A stretch of 22,089 nt of DNA from a virus (IMGVR_UViG_3300023108_000173:1-22089); one strand, 5' to 3'; shown: positions 872-20,572, counted from the stretch's first letter. The notes: generated by a model from the letters alone, not told the origin. Made by a program: numbers and translations.

Positions 872-890
872 ATATTTTATCTAAAGTCAA
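862..890 (-). promoter_or_regulatory. sigma70-like promoter for gp32
   Basis: On the minus strand TTGACT (890-885) is followed after exactly 17 bases by TATACT (867-862), a near-consensus host housekeeping promoter. Transcription would start near 855, leaving a leader of about 60 bases before the gp32 ATG at 794. The -35 lies in the last codons of the SGNH-like gene. The -10 lies inside the 12-base palindrome TAGTATATACTA (861-872). Confidence 0.65.
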
Positions 891-1689
891 GAGGAAATAT
901 TTCTTGCTTTAGAACCGTTGTGCTAAATGAACTAGCTTCAGTTTTATTTATCCATAATGACAGCGCATTATAAAAAAGATGATGATTTGTTTCTGACAGA
1001 TGATTGGGGGAGAGATTTATCTCATGAGTGACGAAGAGTGAATCAGTATATGGCATATTCATATAAGTCTCCAGACCAGGTCCTTGATTGACGCTCACAT
1101 TATCAAATATATGTTCATTATTTGCTTTTAAAAACATGTCTGTATAACTAGAAGACTCATTTAGTGGCAGTTGTGGAACTTGTATAACAAGAACCTTTTT
1201 AAATAATTTTCCTTGAGCAATTAATGTTTGTAAGTTTCGAATTTCATCTATTTCATCAACATTATAAGGAATTCGATGATGCCGAGCATATATCTTAGCC
1301 CATTTATACCAAGGTAAATATTTCTCTGCGTCTTTAATTTCAATTATAGATTCCTCTCTAGTTCTATAAAACATATGTGCAAAATTACTAGCTTCACTAG
1401 CCTCAAATGGCTTAAAATCAAATCTATGAGCATAAGATAATAAAAAAATTAAATTTATATCTTTTAGCTGTTCAAGTTTTCGTTTATGTTTTATAATTTT
1501 CTTAAAAAGTTCATTCAGCATCCTTATGGGTGATGATCCACTAAGACAGTAATTTCTTACTTGATACTGATGGTTAAGTTGGTAGGTATATGTATATGGT
1601 ATGTGGGAAAAGCATGGATCTCCAAAGCTATCTCCAAAGATCCAAACTTTTTCCCTTGTATCATCCTTCGTGGGAATGATTGTGATCAT
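877..1689 (-). CDS. SGNH/GDSL-like hydrolase-type protein, function unknown
   Basis: 270 aa. Residues 16-24 read WIFGDSFGD, the block I of SGNH/GDSL hydrolases, with Ser21 as the possible nucleophile. CLSGSSP near residues 48-54 could be the glycine-containing block II. Near the C-terminus NHLSETNH (229-236) sits where the catalytic Asp-x-x-His block is expected, but the Asp is not evident (S227 or E233 occupies the spacing). Activity is therefore uncertain. I recall proteins with this GDSF start in marine T4-like phages without a known role; an esterase acting on cell-surface sugars or lipids is one guess. No signal peptide is visible. The start overlaps the preceding His-rich lipoprotein gene by 29 bases, so the two are probably translated from one message. 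No better in-frame start exists before the GDS motif. Confidence 0.6.
   Translation of the reverse strand: MITIIPTKDDTREKVWIFGDSFGDPCFSHIPYTYTYQLNHQYQVRNYCLSGSSPIRMLNELFKKIIKHKRKLEQLKDINLIFLLSYAHRFDFKPFEASEASNFAHMFYRTREESIIEIKDAEKYLPWYKWAKIYARHHRIPYNVDEIDEIRNLQTLIAQGKLFKKVLVIQVPQLPLNESSSYTDMFLKANNEHIFDNVSVNQGPGLETYMNMPYTDSLFVTHEINLSPNHLSETNHHLFYNALSLWINKTEASSFSTTVLKQEIFPLDFR
945..952 (-). promoter_or_regulatory. Possible late promoter upstream of gp32
   Basis: GATAAATA on the minus strand, inside the 3' part of the SGNH-like gene and about 150 bases before the gp32 start. It matches the late motif seen elsewhere in the window, but the distance is much longer than for the other copies. It could add late expression of gp32 or be coincidental. 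Confidence 0.25.
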
Positions 1690-1909
1690 GGTATTGATCG
1701 TGCTTCTTCACTGATTGGTGATGATGAGGTGCTGGTGCCTCTGGTTTGTTATGCTCGTGGTAGTCACAAATAACATCTGTGCCACGGGTGTAGCAAATCT
1801 TATCGTGATCGTCGTGCTGCATGAAGTAAGGTCCTTCAACTGCAGGTTGAGGTGCTGTACAGCCTACTGCGATGAGTGCCACTGCGCTCAATGCCAAAAA
1901 TAATTTCAT
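1661..1909 (-). CDS. Small His-rich lipoprotein
   Basis: 82 aa. The N-terminus MKLFLALSAVALIAVGC is a lipoprotein signal peptide with lipobox AVGC and lipidated Cys17, so the mature protein should be anchored in a host membrane facing the periplasm or outside. The mature part is only about 65 residues. It has two other cysteines (KICYTRGTDVICDYHEH), a Pro/Ala stretch and a tail very rich in His (HHHQ, then HDQYHDHNHSHEG), suggesting metal binding. A strong AGGAG lies before the ATG, with late promoter AATAAATA at 1931-1938. Its 3' end overlaps the SGNH-like gene by 29 bases. Phage lipoproteins of this size sometimes block superinfection (T5 Llp is an example), but nothing here proves that role. 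I do not recognise the family. Confidence 0.75.
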   Translation of the reverse strand: MKLFLALSAVALIAVGCTAPQPAVEGPYFMQHDDHDKICYTRGTDVICDYHEHNKPEAPAPHHHQSVKKHDQYHDHNHSHEG

Positions 1910-1930
1910 TGTTTCTCCTAAATTATATTT

Positions 1931-1938
1931 TATTTATT
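1931..1938 (-). promoter_or_regulatory. Late promoter AATAAATA before the His-rich lipoprotein gene
   Basis: AATAAATA on the minus strand, ending 21 bases before the ATG at 1909 and overlapping the stop codon of the upstream secreted-protein gene. T4 late promoters have TATAAATA at -10. The spacing matches other copies in this window. Confidence 0.55.
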
Positions 1939-2419
1939 ACCAAACAGTGAACCACAGCATATTGTTGCCAATAGGTGATTCCATGTCAGTAAGTTCAACC
2001 ACTCCCATTTTCATATCGGGGTGTGCCTCAAACAAAGCCAATTCATGATAAGATATCATTGGCTCATCCTTTAACTTTTCGTATAACTCCATTACTTCCA
2101 TTGGACTGTCAGCAATGAACAGAGTAATATCAAGATCAGGATAGGTTGTAAATCTAACGCCATGCCGTTGTGCTATTTGTCTATCGTAGTAAATATTTTT
2201 CATTTCAGCTACGACATAATCAAATGAGAATGCATAGACGTCATCTCGAGATGTATAAAAAACAGGATATTCTACACCACCTCGCATAATAGGCCTTTTG
2301 ATGTCATGGAAGATTCTTCCATTACCTACATAGCCATTGTCGTGAATTTCAGCTGATGCTGTGCTTGTCATTATAACAGACATTACCAGTGCTACTAAAA
2401 GCCCGCTAATGTATTTCAT
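1937..2419 (-). CDS. Secreted or periplasmic protein of unknown function
   Basis: 160 aa. MKYISGLLVALVMSVIMTSTASA is a typical Sec signal peptide with an A-S-A cleavage site before Glu24, so the mature protein of about 137 aa should be exported to the periplasm. The mature part looks like a compact mixed alpha/beta domain with many aromatics (YPVFYTSRDDVYAFSFDYVV, later ISYHELALFEAHPDMKMG) and no cysteine. I recognise no catalytic motif or family. It lies 11 bases behind the small lipoprotein gene, has GGAG before its ATG, and belongs to a group of exported proteins between gp17 and gp32. It may alter the host envelope or take part in lysis or exclusion, but this is inference from location only. 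Confidence 0.7.
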   Translation of the reverse strand: MKYISGLLVALVMSVIMTSTASAEIHDNGYVGNGRIFHDIKRPIMRGGVEYPVFYTSRDDVYAFSFDYVVAEMKNIYYDRQIAQRHGVRFTTYPDLDITLFIADSPMEVMELYEKLKDEPMISYHELALFEAHPDMKMGVVELTDMESPIGNNMLWFTVW

Positions 2420-2430
2420 TCAGTACTCCT

Positions 2431-2715
2431 CTACTTTATTTCCTCAACTATAGTTCTATCAACTGGAGTCTGAACATAACCTACTTCCTCACTCCAAAAA
2501 TAATAGTAGCCTGTTGGTATTCCATTCTCTTTTTGTCCTGATGTTATTTTGCCATCTTTAATGGTCCATGTCTTAACTACCTTTCCCTCATCTATATATG
2601 AGACACGATAGTCTTGCCCTATAACATTATCAGCAGAACGAAAGAGTTTGTTTCTGGCTTCCTCGGTACAAGCAGATAAAAGTATCAATACAATCGTTAT
2701 AATGATGACACGCAT
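2431..2715 (-). CDS. Small lipoprotein of unknown function
   Basis: 94 aa from the ATG at 2713-2715. The N-terminus MRVIIITIVLILLSAC is a classic lipoprotein signal with lipobox LSAC and lipidated Cys16. The mature part of about 79 residues has the character of a small beta-sheet domain: YRVSYIDEGKVVKTWTIKDGK, then TGYYYFWSEEVGYVQ. A longer reading from a TTG at 2736 would overlap the upstream stop (TTGA) and add seven residues before the natural signal-peptide start. I prefer the ATG because it gives the normal short basic n-region. AAAGGG 12 bases upstream is a possible ribosome site. The gene follows the 477-aa gene directly and is probably co-transcribed with it. Membrane location is well supported; the role is not known. 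Confidence 0.7.
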   Translation of the reverse strand: MRVIIITIVLILLSACTEEARNKLFRSADNVIGQDYRVSYIDEGKVVKTWTIKDGKITSGQKENGIPTGYYYFWSEEVGYVQTPVDRTIVEEIK

Positions 2716-2732
2716 CAATTGAGCTAACCCTT

Positions 2733-4166
2733 TCAAGCCCCTATTCCACTCAACCTAATAATATCATTCAATCCACCTGCAGAATCTTGTACAAACTCTC
2801 CACGTGATCTTGTGTGATATTCTTTGAACTTTTCGTTTATTGCTCTAATAAACTTATTAGCTCCTTCAACGTATTTTGGGCCATAGTCTTTTTCTACGGC
2901 TGTCAATACTGCTGTTTCGCCTTTAGGAAACTGTCCTGTTTCCTTATCATAGTAACCTAAAATAAATTCGGTTACGGGGATTTTCTTTTCTTCTCTATGA
3001 TCCACTATCTCATCGTCGATAGGATTGAACTTGCTACCTTTGTGATGATGACGCTTTTTTAGATCTCGTAATTTTTCTTGTTGGACTGCATTATCAACTC
3101 TATGTTGTGCCCAAGCCTCAAATTTTTCTACTGGGGATGAAGATTTTTTTGCTGCTCGATTTCTTTCTGTTGGTTCTTCTTTTACTAAATCGTCTGGACC
3201 AATTGACTCTAAAGGAGCCTCTGCTACTAGACGATAAAGGTAAGGGAATGCTTCTTTTAGCTCTTCATCAAATTGCTTTACAGTAAGTTGATCAATCCAA
3301 TTTACAGAAATGTCCTCAGGAACTTCTGTAAGTTCCTCAGCTACGAATTGTGATGTAATGTGCTTGTAGCTATACTCACGTTGTATTGATTCTAGTGTTC
3401 GTTTGATTGACTGGATACGTTCTTTTACAAGTCCGTGATAGTTTTTCATTCCCTCTGTAACTGCTTTAGATTTGCCTACATAAGTTTTAAACTTACCTAA
3501 AATACCAAGCTCTTCAGATAGTCCCGTAATGTGTTTTCCAAAATCATCAAATGGATGCCCGCCTTCAGACATATGCCGTGCCATAGCTCGTGCACCGTTC
3601 AAATGCTTATATGGATATTTAAATCTTTCTCCATCAGCATTTTCAATATAAATGTTTTTGATGTTCTGTGTTCTTGAATTCATCAAATCTTGATTTACCT
3701 TGCGGGTGTGCTCTAGGTGGATACGTGATGTTCCAACATCTTGATAGCTATCTCGAGCAGTCCCGTATAGTTTTGATTCTGTCATTGCTTGATCCCCAAA
3801 GTGTTGTGATGACATAAATTTATAATCGCGTTTGTCTAAGTTGCTCTTTGTAATGTTTCTCACATCAAAGTTCATTAGCCTTTTTCTAGCAAACTGTCGT
3901 AATTCTTTTAGAAAAGAATACCATCCTTTTTTTGTAGTAGAGGTTTGGTCCTCTAGAAAAGTTTCAGCGTACATTACATTCAAACCCTCTTGGCTCAGTT
4001 CAACATTTATTGATCCTGTTCCTGGTTTGAATTCAAAGTCAAAGTAGCGTCCTTCCTTAGGATTGTTTGTAACATTTCCTGATTCGTCACCAATAGTAAC
4101 CTCAGGAAATCTTCCGCGGATTTTATTAAACAGCTCTTCGCCTATAAAGTCAATATTCTTATCCAT
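2733..4166 (-). CDS. Conserved T4-like phage protein of unknown function, possibly structural
   Basis: 477 aa from the ATG at 4164-4166. An in-frame TTG at 4181 overlaps the gp17 stop as TTGA and would add five residues; neither start has a good ribosome site. The protein is hydrophilic, charged and without a signal peptide or membrane segment. The N-terminal part (FNKIRGRFPEVTIGDESGNV, then WYSFLKELRQFARKRLMNFD) feels familiar from marine T4-like phages, where I remember no assigned function. The middle is helical with KERIQSIKRTLESIQ, and residues around 330-390 are Lys/Arg/His-rich (KKRHHHKG), suggesting nucleic-acid contact or disorder. The C-terminus DIIRLSGIGA resembles both ends of the 339-aa protein two genes upstream. 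Position next to gp17 and a late motif directly before it suggest a late, head- or packaging-related role. Confidence 0.75.
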   Translation of the reverse strand: MDKNIDFIGEELFNKIRGRFPEVTIGDESGNVTNNPKEGRYFDFEFKPGTGSINVELSQEGLNVMYAETFLEDQTSTTKKGWYSFLKELRQFARKRLMNFDVRNITKSNLDKRDYKFMSSQHFGDQAMTESKLYGTARDSYQDVGTSRIHLEHTRKVNQDLMNSRTQNIKNIYIENADGERFKYPYKHLNGARAMARHMSEGGHPFDDFGKHITGLSEELGILGKFKTYVGKSKAVTEGMKNYHGLVKERIQSIKRTLESIQREYSYKHITSQFVAEELTEVPEDISVNWIDQLTVKQFDEELKEAFPYLYRLVAEAPLESIGPDDLVKEEPTERNRAAKKSSSPVEKFEAWAQHRVDNAVQQEKLRDLKKRHHHKGSKFNPIDDEIVDHREEKKIPVTEFILGYYDKETGQFPKGETAVLTAVEKDYGPKYVEGANKFIRAINEKFKEYHTRSRGEFVQDSAGGLNDIIRLSGIGA

Positions 4167-4171
4167 AATTT

Positions 4172-4179
4172 TATTTATC
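4172..4179 (-). promoter_or_regulatory. Late promoter motif GATAAATA abutting a start codon
   Basis: GATAAATA on the minus strand at the 3' end of gp17, ending only 5 bases before the ATG at 4166. If used as a -10 box, transcription would start at or next to the ATG and give a nearly leaderless message. Confidence 0.4.
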
Positions 4180-5758
4180 AATAATGATTAGATATAAAGA
4201 TTGGCATTGGTGGTTCGTATTCGTCATCTTGCGTCAAACTCTTGAAAGAGTTATATATTCTAGGATCCCAATCTCGTAACACGCCAATCATTCGTATAGC
4301 CAGCAGCATGGCAGAAACCAAGTCATCTGTTTCCTCCATCTTAGCACTATAAGATGCACCGTTAGCTACAAAATTTTTCAGTTCTGATATCAATGCTGCT
4401 GAATTTATTTCTAGTTCGTAGTTCTCAATCATAGTTTTCATTTTACTACACGCATTGAGTTTAGAGCTATGTGTAGTGTTGAAGCCTTTCCTATACTTCC
4501 GCATATGTCCTTTGCGGATAGGCTCGCTCAAAAATAATCCAGGTATATGTTCTTCACCTAAGTCATTAATAACAATAAGTGCCGCCTCACCAATGGAATT
4601 ATTTTCTACACTCCAATATAATGAATTTACATTGTCTAATTTAGATGCAATATGAATACACAAATCTTTTAGCAATCGTATTTGTCCAGGAATAGCAGTA
4701 GTGTTATGTCGCCACTCTGCTACCTGCTTCCAAGTAGGAACTTCTACAACTTGTATAGCAGCATAGTCACCACCAGTTCCCATAGCCGGGTCCAGTGCTA
4801 CAACATATGTAGCCGCTGGATCTATTTTTCTATACCAGCGTATCTGTCCCATGTTCATTATAATTTTGTTGCCTACCATCTCAGCTAAACGTATAGAGTT
4901 GATTAGTGTTTCATCATATACTAAGAACTCGCAGCCATATTCACGTCTAAAACGCTCTTCACCAATACGTCCTAGTTCAGCCTCTTTCCATTTTTCATCT
5001 CTATCAGGATGCTCGTCCCAGCGGCAGGTAAAAGATTTAAATCCGTTTATACCTAAATCTTGTTCGTTGCCGTGCTCGTCAAACTTGTGTTCAGCTTGCT
5101 TCCAAATTGTAGCAAATGTATCTTCGTCTGAGTTTGGAGTAGATGTAATAATGGCACGCCCACCAGTTGCTAGTGTAGGAGAGATAGAAGTCCAAAATTC
5201 TTCAGCTATGTTTGGAGCAACGAACGCAAACTCATCACAGTATAGCAGTGATATGGACATACCTCTACCAGTGTTACCTGTAGTGGTTGCACTTACAATC
5301 CTGCTACCGTTTTCGAATTCAATGCTACCTTTATTGTAACTGATTACACCTGCACGAATATGATCTGGACAACATTCATACACATAGCGAACTCTCTGCA
5401 TAATCTCTTGAGCGCCTGTGTATTTGTGAGCAGCGATTAGAATTGTTTGATCTGGATGAAACATAGCGTACCACATCAAATATATTGCCGCGCAGGTTGT
5501 TTTGCCTGTCTGGCGTGGTAGCATATTCACATTGAAGCGATGATTGTGATATGTATCCATTAGTCTGACTTGATAGTCAAACGGATCAAATAACAATTTA
5601 CCTTTGACAGGATGTTGTATGTAAGCGTAGTGTTTGGAAAAGTGCAAGTATCCTTCCTCAGGATCCATGCACTTCATTAATTCTTCTATTTGTTCATTGG
5701 TGTATTGTTCTTGCTGGTTAGCTTTTTTAGTTAATACCCCATCCAAAGATTTTGACAT
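4178..5758 (-). CDS. gp17: Terminase large subunit gp17 (packaging ATPase and nuclease)
   Basis: 526 aa, somewhat shorter than T4 gp17 (610 aa). It is the motor that pumps DNA into the prohead at the portal and cuts the concatemer. The ATPase domain carries Walker A PRQTGKTT (81-88), Walker B LLYCDEF (171-177) with the catalytic Glu176, and the coupling motif TSTPN (205-209). The C-terminal RuvC-like nuclease has the three acidic positions: Asp323 in ALDPAMGTGGDYAA, Glu385 in WSVENN and Asp479 in ETDDLVSA, so both activities look intact. The gene follows the 339-aa gene after 12 bases without a strong ribosome site of its own, so it is probably on the transcript from the promoter at 6811-6818. 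Unlike T4, the small-subunit gene is not adjacent but about 7.6 kb upstream. Confidence 0.97.
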   Translation of the reverse strand: MSKSLDGVLTKKANQQEQYTNEQIEELMKCMDPEEGYLHFSKHYAYIQHPVKGKLLFDPFDYQVRLMDTYHNHRFNVNMLPRQTGKTTCAAIYLMWYAMFHPDQTILIAAHKYTGAQEIMQRVRYVYECCPDHIRAGVISYNKGSIEFENGSRIVSATTTGNTGRGMSISLLYCDEFAFVAPNIAEEFWTSISPTLATGGRAIITSTPNSDEDTFATIWKQAEHKFDEHGNEQDLGINGFKSFTCRWDEHPDRDEKWKEAELGRIGEERFRREYGCEFLVYDETLINSIRLAEMVGNKIIMNMGQIRWYRKIDPAATYVVALDPAMGTGGDYAAIQVVEVPTWKQVAEWRHNTTAIPGQIRLLKDLCIHIASKLDNVNSLYWSVENNSIGEAALIVINDLGEEHIPGLFLSEPIRKGHMRKYRKGFNTTHSSKLNACSKMKTMIENYELEINSAALISELKNFVANGASYSAKMEETDDLVSAMLLAIRMIGVLRDWDPRIYNSFKSLTQDDEYEPPMPIFISNHY

Positions 5759-5770
5759 TGTTCTATATTT

Positions 5771-6790
5771 TTAGAGCCCAGATAGTTTGCGGATGTCGTC
5801 CATCTCTTCATCATATTGACTACTATTGATTTGATCCTCTGGTGCGTCCTCAATCTTCTTCTTTAGATGTGGAGGAAGATTGTGCTGCTTACCTTTGAGT
5901 TCTTTTTCTCGTGCTGCTTGCTCGCCTTCTGTTCTTCTTCCTGCAGATCCACCTGCACGTGTTCGACTAATGTTTGCTAAATGTCTGCGTTTTGCTTTCT
6001 TCTCTTCTCGTTCTACAGCCTCGTCATAGTCTGTGCCTAGATCCAATACTTTGTTGCCGTACATTCTTTTGAGTTTGCGGAATTTGGAGTTTGGAAGCGC
6101 CATGATGTCTGCGTTCTCATTAGGGACTTCAATGTCACCAGCAAAGCGATTATCGTCTTGGATGTCCATATAGTCATCGTCGTTAGGAACTATAAAGTAT
6201 GTTCTGTCACTACGTCCTGAGAAGTTGTTACTACCTTCATCTCTGCCATCAATCTCTGTAAAGTATTTTTCATTCAATGCTTTCCAAAGTTCTTTCTTAA
6301 ATTTACTTTCCATTGCCATTGGATCCTTTACTCTAATGTCTGATTTTTTGTTGCTTGGTCCACCTGATACATTCTTTCTCAAAAAGTCTCCGTCTTGATA
6401 TTTCTCATCTGGGGAGTTGTCCCAGTCACCATCGCCTTCTGCTTCTCCGCAGGGTTCGTCACCGTGGATTCCTCCACAAGTGTCACAAGTTGAAGGTCCG
6501 TCTAAATCTAATCCAAGAGGTTTAGATGGAGGCATCCCGTCCAAGTCTGGAGCAAGTGCTGGTCCAATTGGTGGCTTAATGTCTGGAATGTCCAGCCCAA
6601 TTGGTGGCTTTGGTGCGTCACCTAATCCAATTGGCGGGAGAGCGGGTTTATCTAAACCCATAGGTGGTTTATCTCCACCAGTAAAGATTCCCATCAAATC
6701 TTTTATCTCTTGACTGTTTGTTCCGTTTAGCGATATATTTACGCTAGCTTCATTCAGCCCAGCCAATTTTTTCATGTCTTGTAAATTCAT
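5771..6790 (-). CDS. Pro/Gly-rich acidic protein, possible head-core or internal protein
   Basis: 339 aa. Residues 41-76 hold four imperfect copies of a (K/L)PP(I/M)GL(D/G) repeat. Residues 102-114 have CDTCGGIHGDEPC, too few cysteines for a full zinc ribbon in one chain. An acidic stretch follows, then a basic helical C-terminal half (REEKKAKRRHLAN, 261-273) and NLPPHLKKKIED. The N-terminus MNLQDMKKLAGLNE/ASV contains LNE, which fits the T4 prohead-protease rule (L/I-x-E, cut after Glu14). The C-terminus DDIRKLSGL echoes the N-terminal DMKKLAGL and the C-terminus of the 477-aa protein. Largely disordered by composition. It sits between the giant gene and gp17 with GGAAGG before its ATG and late promoter GCTAAATA 20 bases upstream. 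I infer a packaged or scaffold-associated protein; the family is not recognised. Confidence 0.75.
   Translation of the reverse strand: MNLQDMKKLAGLNEASVNISLNGTNSQEIKDLMGIFTGGDKPPMGLDKPALPPIGLGDAPKPPIGLDIPDIKPPIGPALAPDLDGMPPSKPLGLDLDGPSTCDTCGGIHGDEPCGEAEGDGDWDNSPDEKYQDGDFLRKNVSGGPSNKKSDIRVKDPMAMESKFKKELWKALNEKYFTEIDGRDEGSNNFSGRSDRTYFIVPNDDDYMDIQDDNRFAGDIEVPNENADIMALPNSKFRKLKRMYGNKVLDLGTDYDEAVEREEKKAKRRHLANISRTRAGGSAGRRTEGEQAAREKELKGKQHNLPPHLKKKIEDAPEDQINSSQYDEEMDDIRKLSGL
6563..6668 (-). repeat. Tandem PPIGL-coding repeats in the 339-aa gene
   Basis: The plus strand shows CCAATTGGTGGC-like units near 6563, 6597 and 6629 and a weaker CCCATAGGTGG near 6658. They encode the four PP(I/M)G units at residues 41-76. 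Spacing is irregular (roughly 10 to 11 codons), as in a flexible linker grown by short duplications. Confidence 0.6.
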
Positions 6791-6791
6791 A

Positions 6792-9700
6792 TTACCTTCC
6801 TGTTATAAAGTATTTAGCGTTCCTGTATGTATTTAATCTCTCAGTAAGTTTTTTCATCTTACGATACAATATTATTTTGTGAGATTCTGTTGTTTCTTCT
6901 TTATAATGTCCTGAGCTAAGTCTTCTAAGAATAAATTCTTCGTGAGCATCAGCACGTTCATCTTTATATGCTAGAGGATTTATTGCCTTTACTCTTTCAT
7001 ATTGCTTCTCAGCTTCTGTTGCTAAAAATCTTGCCATCTCTACTTTTATACCAACAACACCGGATGCTCTTCCATTAAATATGTCATCAACATATCTTCT
7101 ATCATTAGGATTTTTTATATTTTGGATAATTTGGTTATAGTTGTCTGTTAGAAAATATCCATCATAGTTATCGAGAACTTCTTGAAGGGCATACTTAGCA
7201 TCTGTCATTTTATTTGGATCTACCATACCAAAGCCCAAAGCCCCTTGACTCAAATCAACTGTAGGTGCGTTTCTAGCATCATACCTTCCAGCTGGAGCAG
7301 TTGTTTCATTACTTCCTATAATAATAGGATGTCCTTCTGCAAATACTTGATTGTTAGGCTCGTTTCGTATATCCTTAAATGTTTTACTTAAGACTTGTAA
7401 TCCACCATTTTTGTCAATATTTATGAAATAATATGGTCCTTGCTTCCATCGTCTTGCTATACTTTCTACTCTTTTCCTAAACTCTCTCATATCACCGCTT
7501 GTTCTAGGTTGTTTAGGAACATCTCGAACAACACTTAATTTATGAATATTAAACGGAGTCAAAGGCATTTCTACAGGCTCATCTTTTCCTGTTTCAGCAT
7601 TTGGTTTAGACACTGTTACAGCAAATCCTCCTCCACCATATGTTTCTCCCATAAAGTTTTCTTTAGCCCATTTGTTGTTGAAAACTCTACCACCTGTAAT
7701 ATCGTTTTTCCATTGCTCAAGTCCGCCAAACCACCACTTTGGATTGAAGGCTGATACAGAATCATATTGTAACATTCTAGCTACATATGCTCGTTTATCG
7801 TCATCGCTAGTATCATCGTTTCTTAAATAGGCATCTATTTTTTCTAAATCTTTTTCTCTCAATGCCATTAGCTCTTCATTAGTGTCATCTATCCATCCAG
7901 CTGCTACCATGAGAACTACTATATCATATACATCTAATAAATCAAGAGCCCATATAGCCAAACCAAATGCGGCACCAGGTACGGCACCAATAGCAGCACT
8001 GGTTGCAACTATTGCTATTCCTAATTTTTTAGCTATTGAAGTTGCGACTGATTTAGGCATCTTAGCTAATCTCTCAGCTATCTCTCTACTAGATGGGAGA
8101 CTTTTTGATACGTTAGCTTTATGTTGTTTCTCTAAACTTTCTGAGTTAGCTCCTGCTTCTATCTCTTTTCGTTGAGCCTCTATTTTTGCTGTGCCTTTGT
8201 TTATTGCTGTATCTAATTTCTTTTGTTCGTCTCTTCCGCCTTCAAGTTCATCAAGTTCTTTAGCATCCTTAACGCCTAATCTATCAGCCTGGGCTCTATC
8301 AGCATCTGTTAGGTTTTTCTTGCGTTCTTCAAAGTTGCCGCCTGACGTTCGTTCGTCGATAGCTTTTCTCTCTTCTTTAAACTCGCCCCATGTATTTTTA
8401 TTTTCTTCAGATACTGGAATTAGTTTTCCAGGACCAGCTTTGTTTATTGCGTCCTGTGTTGTGCCTGCCATCGTGTTTGTTTCTGGGCCAGCCATACTAC
8501 TTGATGTAGGCTTTTGTAGTTCTCCGTCTTTTGGGGTAATGTTTCTTTGATTTATAGTTCCTGGTTGTTCTGAGTTTGCTACGCCTAAATCGCTTAATGC
8601 TTGTTGCATTTGAGCATCAGCTTTTTGAGGTATAGTAGCAGTTTTTAGTGGAGTAGTGGGACTGTTAAGTTGTTGTGCTACAGTGCTAGTAGCCATTTTG
8701 CCAGTAGTATTATTTCTCCACTGTGCTCCTAGCCATTCATACTCAGCACCGTTTACCATCTTTTTGTCACCAACAGTGTATTTTGTTTGTGTTGAGGATG
8801 GCGGTGATTGACCATTCATAGCAGCAATTTTATCAGCTTGTGCTTGAATTTCTGCTGCTGGGGTAGATGGTTCTGGTTCTACTGTAAGCTGACTTTTAGG
8901 ATCAAAGTTTGGTGATGGATCTGGCTCTGCTAGCTTTCTTTGTTGGATATTGTCAAACTCTGTATTGGCTTGTTTTGTTAGTTCAGCTGATTTATCTCCA
9001 GCTGGTGCTGTGCCAGTCTCTGGAAATGTTTTAGCATCGCGCATTTCTCGTTCAACAGATTGTTGTAGTTGTTCTGAGTTGGGAGAATTTTTTACAGAAT
9101 TCCAATATGCTGTCGCTGCTTTATTTGTATCAGCTTGGAGTTGAGCTATCTCTCTTTCATAGGCAGCAGTTCGTCTAGCCCTTGCTGCTTCTTCTCTACC
9201 TTCAGCTCCTAATTTTTGAGCATCTTCAATATATTTTTTTCTTGCGGCTTGTTCTGCTGCCATTGCTTTTTCATATGCTGTATATGCTCGCATACTTTCA
9301 CCTTCGGCATTTTGCATCAGCCGACGCATCTCTCTTTCATGTTTTTGCATAGCAAGAAGCTGTTCTTGCTTTCTAGCTATCGCAGCATTCTCTGCAGCTG
9401 ATAGATTAGTTTCCAAACTACTACCAAAAGTAGAACCATCAACCGGTCTATTGTTTGGTGTATGTGCTGCCAGTGTCTTGCTAATATTTGCCTGTCCCAT
9501 AGCTTTTTCAAGTTTGTCTAAATCTATTGTGCTACCTTGCATAGCATTGGCAACAAACTTTGGAGCATTTTTATCTTTCCAAGTTACTTCTATAGACTGT
9601 GCAAACTCTTGAGGTTTTATTTGACCATGTGTTAATCTTTCTAGTGCTTCTTGCCCAGCGTCTGAAGTTAATGATTTATTCAGTGTAGAATCTTTAGCTT

Positions 9701-12700
9701 GGAATATGTTTAATAATTCTTCAGTTTTTGTAACTTTTGGGTCCACCAGTTCAAATGGAATGTTATTTCGTGTAACCCCGTTTTGCTGTATCCATGATGC
9801 TAAATCATCTCCTGAAAGAACTGTAGCAGAATTTCGGTATCGCTCTAAATCTATTTCTCCACTCGTTAAAGGTTTAGATTCTTTTGAGATTGGTTCTAGT
9901 TTTGCGTTGGGTCTTGGTAGCCTAGTATCAACATTAATCTCAAAGTTTTTAAGCTCATCCATAAAACCTCCATTGGTATAAGTGGAGTTATTAGATATTA
10001 GTCCCGCAGTAACTTGTTTCAAGTTTGTCTTACTTGCTTCTGGCAATCCACCAACATTTATTTTACTGACATATAGTTTAGTTAAATCAGTAATGTCATC
10101 TAATAGTTTAGGATTAATATTTTTCATTGATGCCCGCATGTCATTTAGATACTTTTCTAAATTTCCATCTGGTGGATTATCAGCTCCGTCTAATATTCCT
10201 AGTAATAGTTTATGCTGAGCGTTATGTTCTATTTTAGGAAGCTCAGGCATCTTGTTAGGATCAAGAGCTTGAAGCACCTTGACTGGAGTGTTGCTATTGA
10301 TATCTATTTTGATAGGACGATGGGTTGCAGGTGTTATGCCTCCACCGCTTACTGATTGAGCTGGTGCAGGAATTTGATTTCCAAGTCTTAGTTGTTGAGC
10401 CGTAGGCATTTCTGCTTTTTTAGATTTCGTAGATGCCGGCGTTATAATTGGCTCTTTAGGTAGAGCAGGCTTGACAGGTTTTTCACCTCGTAATGCACCT
10501 GGGTCATCGAGATTAACTGGGACTGGTCTTTTGCTTGGATCAGTTGTTTTTGTCCTTAAAGTATCGTCAACATCACCACTTCCTTGTCGAGCTACTCCTG
10601 ATTTACCTGGACCTTCTTTATCAAACTCTATTGGTGTATTTTTACTTGGAGTAACATCATCGTATTTTGATAATGGATTTTCATTTGGGTTTTTTAGAAA
10701 CTGTTGGCTTTTAGCTATTGCTCTTTCTCTGCTAGCGTCATCTATACCTGTTTGCCATATAGGCTTTCTTTCTCCATATCCATCATTCGAACTAGTTTTA
10801 ATGGTCTCTTTACCACCTGTCTTTTTTATTTGATCATTTCTTAGTGGCTGTTGCGGCCCATGTGGAGTGGGTCTAACGATTGGCTCTTTTATGCTTGATC
10901 CGCTTGGGGTAACATCATTGTATTTTGATAATGGATTATTTGGCTTTGGATTCTTAAGAAATTGTTGAGCTTTCCTAGCAGCATTCTGTCGTCGAAGTTC
11001 TTCAGGATCCAATTGCCCAGCAAGCTCGTCAGCGTGATTTGGACTGGCGCTAGAACCAACACCTGCTTTTAATCTATCTGGGGTTCTCCTGTATTTAGGA
11101 CCAACATCGTTTGTCCTATATCTATTAGCTAGTTCTGTATCAGGGTTAGATCCATCGTATGCTGCAGCATTTCTTCTTGCTAAATCATCAGCACTGCCTA
11201 ATCTACTTTTGCTTATATCTGTCTTTTTAGATGCTTCCGGGCGTTGTCTAAATTGATCTTTTCTAGCATTGTCCCATTTATTGTAATTTGAATCGTAACC
11301 TGCGTATCTTTTACCGCCTAACCTTTGATGACTTCCTGCTACACTGCTTGGGCTAGTTAATTTTGATAATCTGTTTAATTTTCTAGTATTAATATCATCA
11401 GCTCTTCGTGCTATTTCTTCTGGGCTAGACGCTCTGTTTCTGCCCATACGAGTATTAGTTCTAAGATTTTGTTTTCGTCTAGTTTCAAAATCAGCAGCTC
11501 GTCTTCCTGCTTCATCTGGATTAGATGCTCTAGTTCTTCCCCTATTAGCATCAACTCGAAGATTTTGTTTTCGTCTAGTTTCCCAATCAGCATTTCTTCT
11601 TCCTATTTCATCTGGGTTAGAAGTTCTGCTGAGATTGCGCCGTCTTTGATTTAATCTGTTTCGTCGTCGCCAGTCTTGCTCAGCCTTGGGATCATAGTCA
11701 AATGTATTTTGACGACTCATAGGCCTACGGTTTGGATCTGGCTTTGGATCTGGCTTTGGATTTTTACCATCACTTCTGCCAGTGGCTACTCTTTTCTCAC
11801 TCCATGGATCCTCACCATGGATCATTTTCTTTTTACGTTTTGAATCTAGTTCTTCAGGTGGTCGATTCTTTAGTGGTTTTTCAGGTGGATCTGCTCGTAA
11901 TCTCTCAGGTGGTTTCTTTTCTGGTGTTGCTCCATTTACCCGTTTCCTACCAACAAGCCCAGCAGCGAGGATTGCCGGAAGAGCAGCAGCATTAACGGCA
12001 TTAGATACTGCTTCCTCAGATGGTATAGTACAATCAATGTTAGCATTCAACTCGCTTACTGCTTTACGAGCTTCGTCAAAAGAAAGTTCTTTGTCAAAAT
12101 AAGGATCACCTGCTTCTTTGCCTGGCTCAGATAGATATATTTTAAATTTTAATCCTGATCTTGCCATAAAAAACTGTGGACAGCCATCATCTTCTGCTTT
12201 AGCTGCCACAGGTTCAGTATTGGTTTTTGCGCTTACTGTTGTAGAATTTTGATTAACTGGACGTTGGACTACAGGAACTTCAGCAGGAGGTAGTTCTTCT
12301 TTAGGCTTTTTTTCTTGAGGTTCAAGTTCTGGTTCTGGCTGAGGTGCAGAGCGATTTAGTTCTATCTCATAATAGTCAGCTGCCTCAGGATGCAATACTC
12401 CTAAATCATTTAGTCGTTCAGCAGATGCTTTGTCACTATCATCTAAATCAATACCAGCGCCAGTTCCTTTTAGATTGGAATAAGCTACAGCAGGAGCTTT
12501 AGATCCAAAGAATTTAGTAATTGCATTTTGTCCCGCATAAAAGAATGCTTTTACTCCTAGCTTGCGAGCAATTCTCCCATAATAGTTATCAGAGAATGAT
12601 GCTGCGCCAGCTGGACTTTTCCCCCAACTAGATTTTGATTGCTCAAATTTTTGTGCTTGGGCATACCCTGCTTCAATTTGTTCAAATGTAGGATTGGCTG

Positions 12701-12803
12701 GCAGTGAATCAACTATACGTTGTATTTCAGCATCTAAAACTTTACCGCTGCCAGATTTCCCTTCAACTATTGGACGATGTATTGCGTAGTCCGACTGTTT
12801 CAT
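6792..12803 (-). CDS. Giant 2003-aa protein, putative internal head or ejection protein
   Basis: One uninterrupted 6-kb frame, ATG 12803 to TAA 6792. I recognise no enzyme domain. In order: an N-terminus with RPIVE/GKSG, where I-V-E (12-14) fits the T4 prohead-protease rule; a Pro/Glu linker (about 150-180); a small domain near 205-265; a hydrophobic stretch (268-285, AAALPAILAAGLVG); a long, very Arg/Lys-rich disordered part with 32-aa repeats (395-481) and a second repeat pair (613-634, 700-720); a coiled coil rich in Ala, Glu and Arg (about 1132-1250); a Trp motif EWLGAQWRN in 1342-1382; two hydrophobic helices (1594-1620, 1625-1638); and a folded-looking C-terminal domain of about 350 aa. 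It lies between genes 16 and 17, 2 bases after the 167-aa gene. The mix of basic disorder, coiled coil and membrane-like helices recalls injected virion proteins. A structural tail role or tape-measure-like role is the main alternative. Confidence 0.8.
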   Translation of the reverse strand: MKQSDYAIHRPIVEGKSGSGKVLDAEIQRIVDSLPANPTFEQIEAGYAQAQKFEQSKSSWGKSPAGAASFSDNYYGRIARKLGVKAFFYAGQNAITKFFGSKAPAVAYSNLKGTGAGIDLDDSDKASAERLNDLGVLHPEAADYYEIELNRSAPQPEPELEPQEKKPKEELPPAEVPVVQRPVNQNSTTVSAKTNTEPVAAKAEDDGCPQFFMARSGLKFKIYLSEPGKEAGDPYFDKELSFDEARKAVSELNANIDCTIPSEEAVSNAVNAAALPAILAAGLVGRKRVNGATPEKKPPERLRADPPEKPLKNRPPEELDSKRKKKMIHGEDPWSEKRVATGRSDGKNPKPDPKPDPNRRPMSRQNTFDYDPKAEQDWRRRNRLNQRRRNLSRTSNPDEIGRRNADWETRRKQNLRVDANRGRTRASNPDEAGRRAADFETRRKQNLRTNTRMGRNRASSPEEIARRADDINTRKLNRLSKLTSPSSVAGSHQRLGGKRYAGYDSNYNKWDNARKDQFRQRPEASKKTDISKSRLGSADDLARRNAAAYDGSNPDTELANRYRTNDVGPKYRRTPDRLKAGVGSSASPNHADELAGQLDPEELRRQNAARKAQQFLKNPKPNNPLSKYNDVTPSGSSIKEPIVRPTPHGPQQPLRNDQIKKTGGKETIKTSSNDGYGERKPIWQTGIDDASRERAIAKSQQFLKNPNENPLSKYDDVTPSKNTPIEFDKEGPGKSGVARQGSGDVDDTLRTKTTDPSKRPVPVNLDDPGALRGEKPVKPALPKEPIITPASTKSKKAEMPTAQQLRLGNQIPAPAQSVSGGGITPATHRPIKIDINSNTPVKVLQALDPNKMPELPKIEHNAQHKLLLGILDGADNPPDGNLEKYLNDMRASMKNINPKLLDDITDLTKLYVSKINVGGLPEASKTNLKQVTAGLISNNSTYTNGGFMDELKNFEINVDTRLPRPNAKLEPISKESKPLTSGEIDLERYRNSATVLSGDDLASWIQQNGVTRNNIPFELVDPKVTKTEELLNIFQAKDSTLNKSLTSDAGQEALERLTHGQIKPQEFAQSIEVTWKDKNAPKFVANAMQGSTIDLDKLEKAMGQANISKTLAAHTPNNRPVDGSTFGSSLETNLSAAENAAIARKQEQLLAMQKHEREMRRLMQNAEGESMRAYTAYEKAMAAEQAARKKYIEDAQKLGAEGREEAARARRTAAYEREIAQLQADTNKAATAYWNSVKNSPNSEQLQQSVEREMRDAKTFPETGTAPAGDKSAELTKQANTEFDNIQQRKLAEPDPSPNFDPKSQLTVEPEPSTPAAEIQAQADKIAAMNGQSPPSSTQTKYTVGDKKMVNGAEYEWLGAQWRNNTTGKMATSTVAQQLNSPTTPLKTATIPQKADAQMQQALSDLGVANSEQPGTINQRNITPKDGELQKPTSSSMAGPETNTMAGTTQDAINKAGPGKLIPVSEENKNTWGEFKEERKAIDERTSGGNFEERKKNLTDADRAQADRLGVKDAKELDELEGGRDEQKKLDTAINKGTAKIEAQRKEIEAGANSESLEKQHKANVSKSLPSSREIAERLAKMPKSVATSIAKKLGIAIVATSAAIGAVPGAAFGLAIWALDLLDVYDIVVLMVAAGWIDDTNEELMALREKDLEKIDAYLRNDDTSDDDKRAYVARMLQYDSVSAFNPKWWFGGLEQWKNDITGGRVFNNKWAKENFMGETYGGGGFAVTVSKPNAETGKDEPVEMPLTPFNIHKLSVVRDVPKQPRTSGDMREFRKRVESIARRWKQGPYYFINIDKNGGLQVLSKTFKDIRNEPNNQVFAEGHPIIIGSNETTAPAGRYDARNAPTVDLSQGALGFGMVDPNKMTDAKYALQEVLDNYDGYFLTDNYNQIIQNIKNPNDRRYVDDIFNGRASGVVGIKVEMARFLATEAEKQYERVKAINPLAYKDERADAHEEFILRRLSSGHYKEETTESHKIILYRKMKKLTERLNTYRNAKYFITGR
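6811..6818 (-). promoter_or_regulatory. Late promoter GCTAAATA before the 339-aa gene and gp17
   Basis: GCTAAATA on the minus strand inside the last codons of the giant gene, ending 20 bases before the ATG at 6790. The same octamer occurs upstream of the tail sheath gene. It probably drives the 339-aa gene and gp17. Confidence 0.5.
10644..10967 (-). repeat. Two copies of a QQFLKNP...NPLSKYxDVTPS repeat in the giant gene
   Basis: Residues 613-634 (10902-10967) and 700-720 (10644-10706) both read QQFLKNP, then NPLSKY(N/D)DVTPS, with a one-residue length difference. Both follow a short Arg/Ala-rich helix-like stretch. The copies are 87 residues apart, suggesting duplication of a larger unit whose remainder has diverged, or two copies of a binding motif. 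Confidence 0.8.
11361..11621 (-). repeat. 32-aa (96-base) Arg-rich tandem repeats in the giant gene
   Basis: Unit 1 (residues 395-426) begins SNPDEIGRRNADWETRRKQN, unit 2 (427-458) begins SNPDEAGRRAADFETRRKQN, and unit 3 (459-481, partial) begins SSPEEIARRADDINTRK. The first two share most residues and continue to GR(T/N)RA. The DNA is also similar (TCATCTGG, GTTTTCGTCTAGTTT). Each unit carries about nine Arg/Lys, suggesting nucleic-acid contact. Confidence 0.85.
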
Positions 12804-12805
12804 TC

Positions 12806-13309
12806 TTAATTGCTTTCACCTGTGGAAAAATTTACTGTTCTTTCTTTACGGGCTACTTCAAGTTCTTTGAGTAAGTCCATTACACGATTGGCTCCTACTT
12901 GATCCTGTGCTGATTCTCCACCAAGCTCTGGATTAGTAATAAGAGGCTCGTATGGTTTGTCCTCATCTTGCTTTGTATATTCATCCATAGGATCGTATTC
13001 ATTGCGAATGCTTAGATGCGATTCTGGAAAAGGAACCTCATCTTTAATAATATTAGCCAATATCTGTGTAGTAGTAGGATAGTTTAGCTCAATATCAAAG
13101 TGTGTAACTTCTACATTGCTTAGGCGTGGAAAGTCCAATGGAGTTTCAGTAATAGGTGTTGTTTTAGCTTTTTGGCATTTAATAACCTCAAATTTATTTA
13201 GACAGCCTTCTAGCTTTCCTTCAAACCCTTCAGGTAGCTCTCCTGCTGCCCGTAATTTGAAAACATATGTTTTCTTAGTTTCCATTAAATAATCGTTAAA
13301 GTGTTTCAT
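12806..13309 (-). CDS. Conserved 167-aa phage protein with capsid-targeting-like N-terminus
   Basis: 167 aa. The start MKHFNDYLMETKKTYVFKLR resembles the capsid-targeting peptide of T4 internal proteins (IPI begins MKTYQEFIAE): same length to the Glu at position 10 and a hydrophobic residue two before it, which would allow prohead-protease cleavage after L-M-E. The following domain (FEGKLEGCLNKFEVIKC, TPITETPLDFPRLSNVEVTHFDIELNYPTT) is of a type I recall in marine T4-like phages near head genes, without a firm function. The acidic C-terminal half (NEYDPMDEYTKQDEDKPYEP) is probably flexible. GAGGAA lies 8 bases before the ATG and late promoter GATAAATA 21 bases before. It is directly followed by the giant gene. 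I infer a head-core or internal protein. Confidence 0.75.
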   Translation of the reverse strand: MKHFNDYLMETKKTYVFKLRAAGELPEGFEGKLEGCLNKFEVIKCQKAKTTPITETPLDFPRLSNVEVTHFDIELNYPTTTQILANIIKDEVPFPESHLSIRNEYDPMDEYTKQDEDKPYEPLITNPELGGESAQDQVGANRVMDLLKELEVARKERTVNFSTGESN

Positions 13310-13329: not shown

Positions 13330-13827
13330 CTATTTATCAATATTTTTTAGTTTCTCAATGAGGCTGTTTCTGTCACTTACTACAAATCCTTCAGTCTCAA
13401 TTACTCCTTGCGCCTCTTTAGGCTTAGTGTCGTGATCCAATTTGTCCTTTTTTAGTTGTAGCTCTACCATCTTTATCTTTTTATCTAGCTTTGCTACCTT
13501 GGCATCTAAATTAGTCTTTAGCATTTGTCCCGCTACTTCAAAGATGCGCGAGCTATAACGGGACTCTACGTTCATACCTAAGTCCATTAGATCATCATAA
13601 GCGTCCATGCTACGTTGTGCTACCTCGTCTAATTCAGCATCAGCAGCATCGCCCAAGCCTTTTACTTTAGGCAACGCTTCTGTAATTTTGTCAAAGTCTG
13701 CTACTTTACGGAGAGTATCATTCAACTCTTCTTTAGTTTTTCGTTGTTTGCGTTTTGGTTTGGCATCCTCTTGAATGATTTCCTGAGACTCAGGAAGATT
13801 CAAAAGTTCCTCAAGTTTTTTTGTCAT
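13330..13827 (-). CDS. gp16: Terminase small subunit gp16
   Basis: 165 aa, nearly the length of T4 gp16 (164 aa). The small subunit forms a ring that recognises phage DNA and regulates the gp17 motor. The N-terminal 30 residues are basic (KPKRKQRK, 23-30). The diagnostic part is the central helical segment RYSSRIFEVAGQMLKTNLDA (90-109) continuing into a Lys-rich coiled coil to about 130, which matches the marine gp16 pattern in my memory (SSARIFEVAG). The C-terminus (SDRNSLIEKLKNI) resembles the short gp16 tail. AAAAGG lies just before the ATG. The gene follows gp4 after 14 bases. In T4, gene 16 overlaps gene 17; here 7.6 kb of other genes separates them, which is the most striking change of order in the window. 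Confidence 0.8.
   Translation of the reverse strand: MTKKLEELLNLPESQEIIQEDAKPKRKQRKTKEELNDTLRKVADFDKITEALPKVKGLGDAADAELDEVAQRSMDAYDDLMDLGMNVESRYSSRIFEVAGQMLKTNLDAKVAKLDKKIKMVELQLKKDKLDHDTKPKEAQGVIETEGFVVSDRNSLIEKLKNIDK
13331..13338 (-). promoter_or_regulatory. Late promoter GATAAATA before the 167-aa gene and giant gene
   Basis: GATAAATA on the minus strand, overlapping the gp16 stop codon and ending 21 bases before the ATG at 13309. The GAGGAA ribosome site lies between the two. The giant gene has no late motif of its own close by, so it is probably read from here. Confidence 0.55.
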
Positions 13828-20218: not shown

Positions 20219-20572
20219 ATGGAACGCAAAACACGGCCCTTATGTGAGAGTTGTAACTCTCAGCCGGCAGGAATCAATTATTATAAAGAAGGAAAAGCAT
20301 ACTATCGCAGGAAATGCGACAAGTGTTTGCGACAAACAAATAAGACTAGGGCTCCTTTTTGGAAGCGAGCTGGCTATGAGATGAAGAATTATTGTGAGAA
20401 GTGTAGCTACAAAAGCAATCACGCAGAGCAGTTCAATGTATTTCACATCGACGGAGATCTTACAAATTGTAAAATAAAAAATCTAAAAACTGTCTGCGCT
20501 AATTGTCAGAGGATATTGCACAAAGAAAATATTAGGTGGAAACAAGGAGATTTGATTCCAGATATGATTTGA
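20219..20572 (+). CDS. Zinc-finger protein with degenerate HNH-endonuclease motif
   Basis: 117 aa, on the strand opposite to its neighbours. Four Cys pairs are visible: Cys9/Cys12, Cys33/Cys36, Cys59/Cys62 and Cys93/Cys96, enough for two zinc sites. The C-terminal half follows the HNH pattern: FHIDGDLTN with His76 and Asp78, then KNLKTVCANCQ with Asn88. The usual last His of the motif is replaced (Gln97, with His101 nearby), so cutting activity is uncertain. The basic linker (RRKCDKCLRQTNKTRAPFWK) suits DNA or RNA binding. I recall similar small CxxC proteins in marine T4-like phages, without a tested function. It could be a free-standing homing nuclease relic or a transcription or packaging factor. 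Its 3' end overlaps the convergent kinase gene by 41 bases. Confidence 0.75.
   Translation: MERKTRPLCESCNSQPAGINYYKEGKAYYRRKCDKCLRQTNKTRAPFWKRAGYEMKNYCEKCSYKSNHAEQFNVFHIDGDLTNCKIKNLKTVCANCQRILHKENIRWKQGDLIPDMI

Follow-up and report, generated by a model that had tools for sequence, protein, structure and literature searches.

What is the function of a 2003-codon gene that lies near the terminase genes of a T4-like phage and encodes a protein that matches no known family? This question is raised by a 22,089-nucleotide stretch of viral DNA (IMGVR_UViG_3300023108_000173:1-22089, hereafter the window), which comes from a jumbo myovirus related to PA5oct (Arenbergviridae) and covers part of its genome. 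The minus strand carries, in this order, a neck protein, a dNMP kinase, the sheath, two tube proteins, a 167-aa protein, a head-closure nuclease, a 165-aa protein, a second 167-aa protein, the 2003-aa protein (the giant), a 339-aa protein, the terminase large subunit (TerL) and a 482-aa protein. The same gene order is found in PA5oct and, with insertions, in the Sinorhizobium phage Phosso and the Agrobacterium phage Atu_ph07; in the Serratia phage BF and the Vibrio phage 2.275.O the order matches, with TerL not adjoining. A sequence-only reading of the same DNA had described a single 6-kb frame covering over a quarter of the window, which is confirmed at 27%, though on the minus strand. It had also placed the giant between gp16 and gp17. 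This is loosely right, since the 165-aa gene, the second one upstream of the giant, is weakly TerS-like, but two further genes lie in the interval.

The giant ORF is real and not an artefact. It is intact and open from its ATG, begins 2 bases past the stop of the preceding 167-aa gene, and its TAA is followed after one base by the ATG of the 339-aa gene, the ribosome-binding site of which (AGGAAGG) lies inside the last codons of the giant. The protein is nearly unchanged in four other IMG/VR contigs: it is full length in L002 and L003, with one amino-acid change each and an exact extra 96-bp tandem copy, and only its 3' part is present in L004 and L005. A more distant locus, L058, carries a diverged N-terminus of the giant in frame at the same place. 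Searches with the giant against Pfam, PHROGs, PDB sequences and about 50,000 phage genomes gave no family match, and phage records were not matched even at E 1; the sole Pfam match was at chance level (E 0.097). The giant itself shows no recognisable enzymatic or peptidoglycan-binding domain, nor did fibre or tape-measure domains in Pfam or PHROGs match it. The earlier statement that it holds no recognisable domain thus stands, and clear homology to a known tail fibre, tape measure or enzyme was not found in Pfam, PHROGs or PDB. The giant is clade-specific.

Table 1. Features of the giant and of its neighbouring genes (window coordinates)
Feature	Position	Strand	Basis
165-aa protein, weakly TerS-like	13330..13827	-	phrog_445 E 9e-5, phrog_16202 E 2e-15
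167-aa virion protein, phrog_14802	12806..13309	-	homologue of PA5oct gp282, found by mass spectrometry
Giant slot protein, 2003 aa	6792..12803	-	open frame; no family match
Predicted capsid-targeting propeptide MKQSDYAIHRPIVE, residues 1-14, gp21-type I-x-E end	12762..12803	-	conservation in L058, rarity of [LI]xE[AGS]
N-terminal domain common to other slot proteins, residues 24-148	12360..12734	-	HMM E 5e-5; AlphaFold2
Hydrophobic segment, residues 266-284	11952..12008	-	Kyte-Doolittle 1.65
Three Arg-rich repeats of ~32 aa, residues 393-484	11352..11627	-	extra exact 96-bp copy in L002/L003
A/E/K/R/Q-rich stretch, residues 1136-1234	9102..9398	-	sequence composition
YTVGDKKMVNGAEYEWLGAQWRN motif (W-motif), residues 1340-1371	8691..8786	-	HMM E 0.02, weak
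Paired hydrophobic helices, residues 1582-1640	7884..8060	-	Kyte-Doolittle 1.79 and 1.98
Orphan C-terminal region, residues 1641-2003	6795..7883	-	near-identical IMG/VR relatives only
339-aa core protein, predicted cleavage after LNE14, before A	5771..6790	-	in many relatives, N-terminal extensions precede it in one ORF
Terminase large subunit	4178..5758	-	Pfam PF03237/PF17289; 54% identical to PA5oct TerL

The order of parts described earlier, from a cleavable-looking N-terminus through a hydrophobic segment, basic repeats, a helical stretch and paired hydrophobic stretches to a C-terminal part, is the one seen in Table 1. The protein is basic (pI 9.1, net charge +27) and mostly disordered by composition. 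The Arg-rich repeats differ in copy number between near-identical phages, one extra copy of 96 bp (32 aa) being present in L002 and L003. Tandem Repeats Finder missed them because the copies in the window have diverged; the unit is shown by the duplication in L002. The A/E/K/R/Q-rich stretch is probably helical or a coiled coil, and the two hydrophobic stretches of the pair lie within residues 1594-1633. For the coiled coil and for a folded domain at the C-terminus, both proposed in the sequence-only reading, the support comes from composition only: the C-terminal ~400 aa are richer in order-promoting residues than the rest, but an AlphaFold2 model of the C-terminus made without an alignment reached a pLDDT of 39 and was not taken into a fold search. 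Relatives of the C-terminal region were sought in viral contigs (IMG/VR), GTDB genomes and phages, and only the near-identical IMG/VR copies were found.

The surroundings of the giant are more informative. About 110 related metagenomic loci were gathered by searches with TerL and the 167-aa protein. The neighbours are conserved across these loci (TerL is mostly 57-83% identical), whereas the slot that separates the 167-aa gene from TerL has hypervariable content. Most loci contain a single slot ORF of 165-1565 aa that ends in the core of the 339-aa protein; a separate upstream slot ORF occurs in a few (1514 aa in L062, 874 aa in L068, 787 aa in L020). In the window the usual single ORF is split into the giant, which is the largest version found among the slot proteins, and the 339-aa protein. 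Split and fused forms are interleaved in the TerL tree: the window clade and L062/L068 have the split form, L109 and L018 the fused form, and L020 both. The sequence-only reading had missed this lineage-wide variability of the slot, as well as the connection of the giant to the adjoining 339-aa gene, to the core of which homologous N-terminal regions are fused in relatives. As to the presence of the same gene in related genomes, the slot is kept, but the giant itself is represented by near-identical copies and the diverged N-terminus in L058.

A hidden Markov model built from slot proteins, with the giant and L058 left out, was searched against 3434 ORFs. It found the N-terminal domain of the giant at the E-value given in Table 1, and all its matches below E 0.01 were slot genes; the reverse search from the giant and L058 was weak (L063, E 0.006). 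AlphaFold2, supplied with 11 sequences, modelled the domain with confident helices (pTM 0.68), and Foldseek of this model against BFVD and PDB gave no match at E<=0.001. The domain is shared by the slot proteins of L020, L062, L018 and L065, the remaining sequences of which differ from the giant; those of L018, L020 and L065 are, unlike the giant, fused to the 339-aa core. The domain was found neither in a 357-kb relative nor in five named jumbo phages, PA5oct included. As judged from sequence comparison, the same locus and the shared domain show that the giant belongs to the slot-protein family.

PG_binding_1 is found in 13 of 38 slot proteins, and L065 combines the N-terminal domain of the giant, PG_binding_1 and the core in one ORF. 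The best PDB matches of a region common to L020 and L109 are goose-type lysozymes, at a weak E of 0.03. Such peptidoglycan-binding and goose-lysozyme-like domains are often present in ejected proteins. ESI-MS/MS detected two PA5oct proteins in virions, the slot protein gp281 and the adjacent gp282. PA5oct gp281, BF gp207-209, Vibrio 2.275.O 387-389 and Phosso 408-410 occupy the same position after the 167-aa family, in PA5oct and Phosso also before TerL. Direct homology of the giant to the slot proteins of PA5oct, BF, Vibrio, Phosso or Atu_ph07 was considered and set aside, as nothing was detectable beyond the 22-30-aa W-motif. For this motif the giant family was the top match of the HMM among the 3434 ORFs; it resembles, weakly, repeats in the BF and Vibrio 2.275.O slot proteins.

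In T4 the internal proteins reach the head by means of a propeptide of 10-19 residues that ends in an L/I-x-E site, after which the protease gp21 cleaves (PMC9026906). The start of the giant agrees with this pattern. In comparison with L058 (MKQSDYAIHRP(I/L)VE) 13 of the first 14 residues are identical, against 63 of 137 (46%) thereafter, and the sole difference in the peptide is I to L at P3, a position read by gp21, so that the motif is kept. The giant contains only two [LI]xE[AGS] sites, at 14 and 922. Its peptide is unlike the MKxFxxFLxE consensus of the 167-aa family, members of which start in relatives with MKSF.EFLTE before S and thereby resemble the T4 capsid-targeting peptide. Within residues 5-36, [LIM]xE is enriched in the slot proteins, being present in 62 of 80 slot clusters versus 46 of 100 downstream control clusters (p=2e-5). 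A lone L/I-x-E triplet is a weak indicator by itself: 21 of the 65 controls not homologous to window genes also had one. A recognisable EASMN-type core start usually comes directly after x-E, with A, S, G, M or T following the E and with I, L, M or A two residues before it, either at the gene start or, in a fused ORF, hundreds of residues further in; the E is missing from the core start of some short relatives. BF gp209 and Vibrio 389 have a start with INE before A in common with the 339-aa protein. A gp21-type protease (Peptidase_S77) is encoded in the sibling contig G001 (76.6 kb; E 1e-25), and also in G006, G009, PA5oct, BF and Phosso. The T4-like context, the processed-looking N-terminus and the virion-protein locus claimed earlier for the giant are thus supported.

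We consider it probable (about 0.6) that the giant is a prohead-core virion cargo, cut by a T4-type protease, packed with the DNA and then probably ejected. This reading is based on the PA5oct-like slot with its virion proteins gp281 and gp282, the hypervariability of the slot, the shared N-terminal domain, the conserved 14-residue peptide, the gp21-type sites and protease, and PG_binding_1 in slot proteins. The first 14 residues would act as a capsid-targeting propeptide that brings the giant into the prohead, where the gp21 homologue would cut after IVE14, before Gly15. The basic product of ~1989 aa would be packaged, would probably leave the head together with the DNA, and its hydrophobic helices and C-terminal region may act at or inside the cell envelope. 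In relatives the slot would hold different cargo, in many cases joined in frame to the core, for which the window has the separate 339-aa gene.

The T4 precedent for capsid targeting, L/I-x-E cleavage and ejection (PMC9026906, PMC3012670) extends to several details: IPI, IPII, IPIII and Alt also have a short N-terminal propeptide ending in L/I-x-E and are basic, the lineage encodes a gp21-type protease, and the cargo set is diverse in both. No PHROG or Pfam match links the giant to the T4 internal proteins or Alt. These are themselves poorly conserved, which would leave a shared mechanism possible, and the giant is not filed as a homologue. The T4 internal proteins are small (~8-20 kDa) and Alt has ~680 aa, whereas the giant, after the predicted cut, keeps ~1989 aa that include repeats, hydrophobic helices and the orphan C-terminus. 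By analogy they still appear a better parallel than T7 gp15 and gp16, to which the giant had been likened. That likeness holds as a functional one (large, presumably head-stored, and expected to act at the envelope), but neither homology to gp15/gp16 nor a lytic transglycosylase domain was found in PHROGs, Pfam or PDB. SPN3US and phiKZ carry a large mass of head proteins, several of which are cut by a gp21-related protease and ejected into the host (PMC5694885); these have longer propeptides and S/A-x-E sites, and are unrelated to the giant. The simplest account would make the giant a clade-specific variant of T4-style capsid-targeted cargo, in a T4-like internal-protein locus grown large. The size, the fused or split arrangement of cargo and core, and the nested start would be the new elements.

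This nested start was studied in those ten fused ORFs that have a methionine immediately ahead of the cleavage site; several are related, and at least four distinct lineages are represented. The in-frame ATG before the core was preceded by a ribosome-binding site in all ten, compared with 3 of 247 other in-frame ATGs, and in L065 the codon in this context is a TTG. No such internal start is present in five other fused forms. Because of the internal ATG and its ribosome-binding site, the core is probably also made alone in many relatives. The arrangement is consistent with a fusion of two genes, or with a nested gene. A core that is itself a degraded scaffold was also considered and rejected, its [LI]xE sites not being clearly enriched.

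That relatives nest the core in frame within a longer ORF, an arrangement like that of the lambda C/Nu3 scaffold, could point to the giant being a core- or scaffold-like head-assembly protein, lost by degradation or removal ahead of virion maturation. It adjoins head genes, and it is long, variable in length and mostly disordered by composition. A scaffold destined for degradation should, however, be rich in [LI]xE, which is not enriched in the giant (11 sites versus 16.8 expected); the giant is moreover basic, and a scaffold would have no need for the peptidoglycan-binding domains of the slot proteins. We regard this alternative as unlikely. Slightly less probable still is a structural protein on the outside of the virion or associated with its tail, such as a neck whisker, a fibre or a baseplate hub, that would act on the envelope from the tail. 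The slots of Phosso and Atu_ph07 do hold fibre-like beta-repeat proteins, the W-motif resembles repeats of the BF and Vibrio slot proteins, and peptidoglycan domains are frequent in tail hubs, but the giant itself has no beta-repeat or fibre signatures, the blank Pfam, PHROGs and PDB searches apply here as well, and gp21-type N-terminal sites are common to the slot proteins. A non-virion protein, made in the infected cell and merely sited in a structural operon, is very improbable: metabolic-looking genes do occasionally enter the slot, such as a radical-SAM-like protein directly before TerL in L035 (4506-5708), but the giant is tightly coupled to the upstream 167-aa virion protein and the downstream 339-aa protein, and has its domain and processing signals in common with slot proteins fused to the core.

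Returning to a cargo packed with the DNA, a more general proposal can be put forward tentatively, namely that the slot is a dedicated cargo-loading locus. Swappable cargo would be fused to the core with a gp21 site in between, the core would also be supplied from the nested start, and it would carry the cargo into the prohead, to be cut free at maturation; the phage of the window would instead have made this cargo a separate giant that carries a targeting peptide itself. If the cargo reading is right, it would pinpoint, for a large group of uncultivated jumbo phages, the locus of their delivered proteins, offer a simple rule for finding them (the slot plus an L/I-x-E site), and reveal a natural way of getting very large proteins into phage heads. 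The switching between split and fused forms by nested start and protease site would then become testable.

Some further observations concern the same loci. A short L..L(A/S)G(I/L/V) motif is found at the start or end of many virion proteins of the lineage (MKKLAGLNE, RKLSGL*), for example in window 5771-6790, L018, L109, L020 and Phosso 412, and could serve as a peptide that binds the head core. In relatives, the 482-aa virion protein that follows TerL (window 2733-4181) also varies greatly in length (~400-865 aa). Between it and ssb (window 1661-2736, minus strand) three small exported-looking proteins are encoded, two with lipoprotein-type signal sequences with C and one with a signal peptide; a p82-like gene is found again in L019. 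A 270-aa SGNH/GDSL hydrolase-like protein (window 877-1689, minus strand) has a relative at the matching place in L034. On the opposite strand, between the dNMP kinase and the sheath, a 117-aa HNH-like ORF (window 20219-20572, plus strand; 3' ends overlap) is probably a homing endonuclease. TerL appears interrupted or truncated in L048 (8861-12031) and in L132/L133 (12127-12765), possibly by an intron, an intein or a homing-endonuclease insertion. Finally, in L018 (1067-6481) two fibre-like ORFs and a 1101-aa subtilisin-like protease (Peptidase_S8, E 1e-21) form an insertion that separates the 155-aa gene from head closure.
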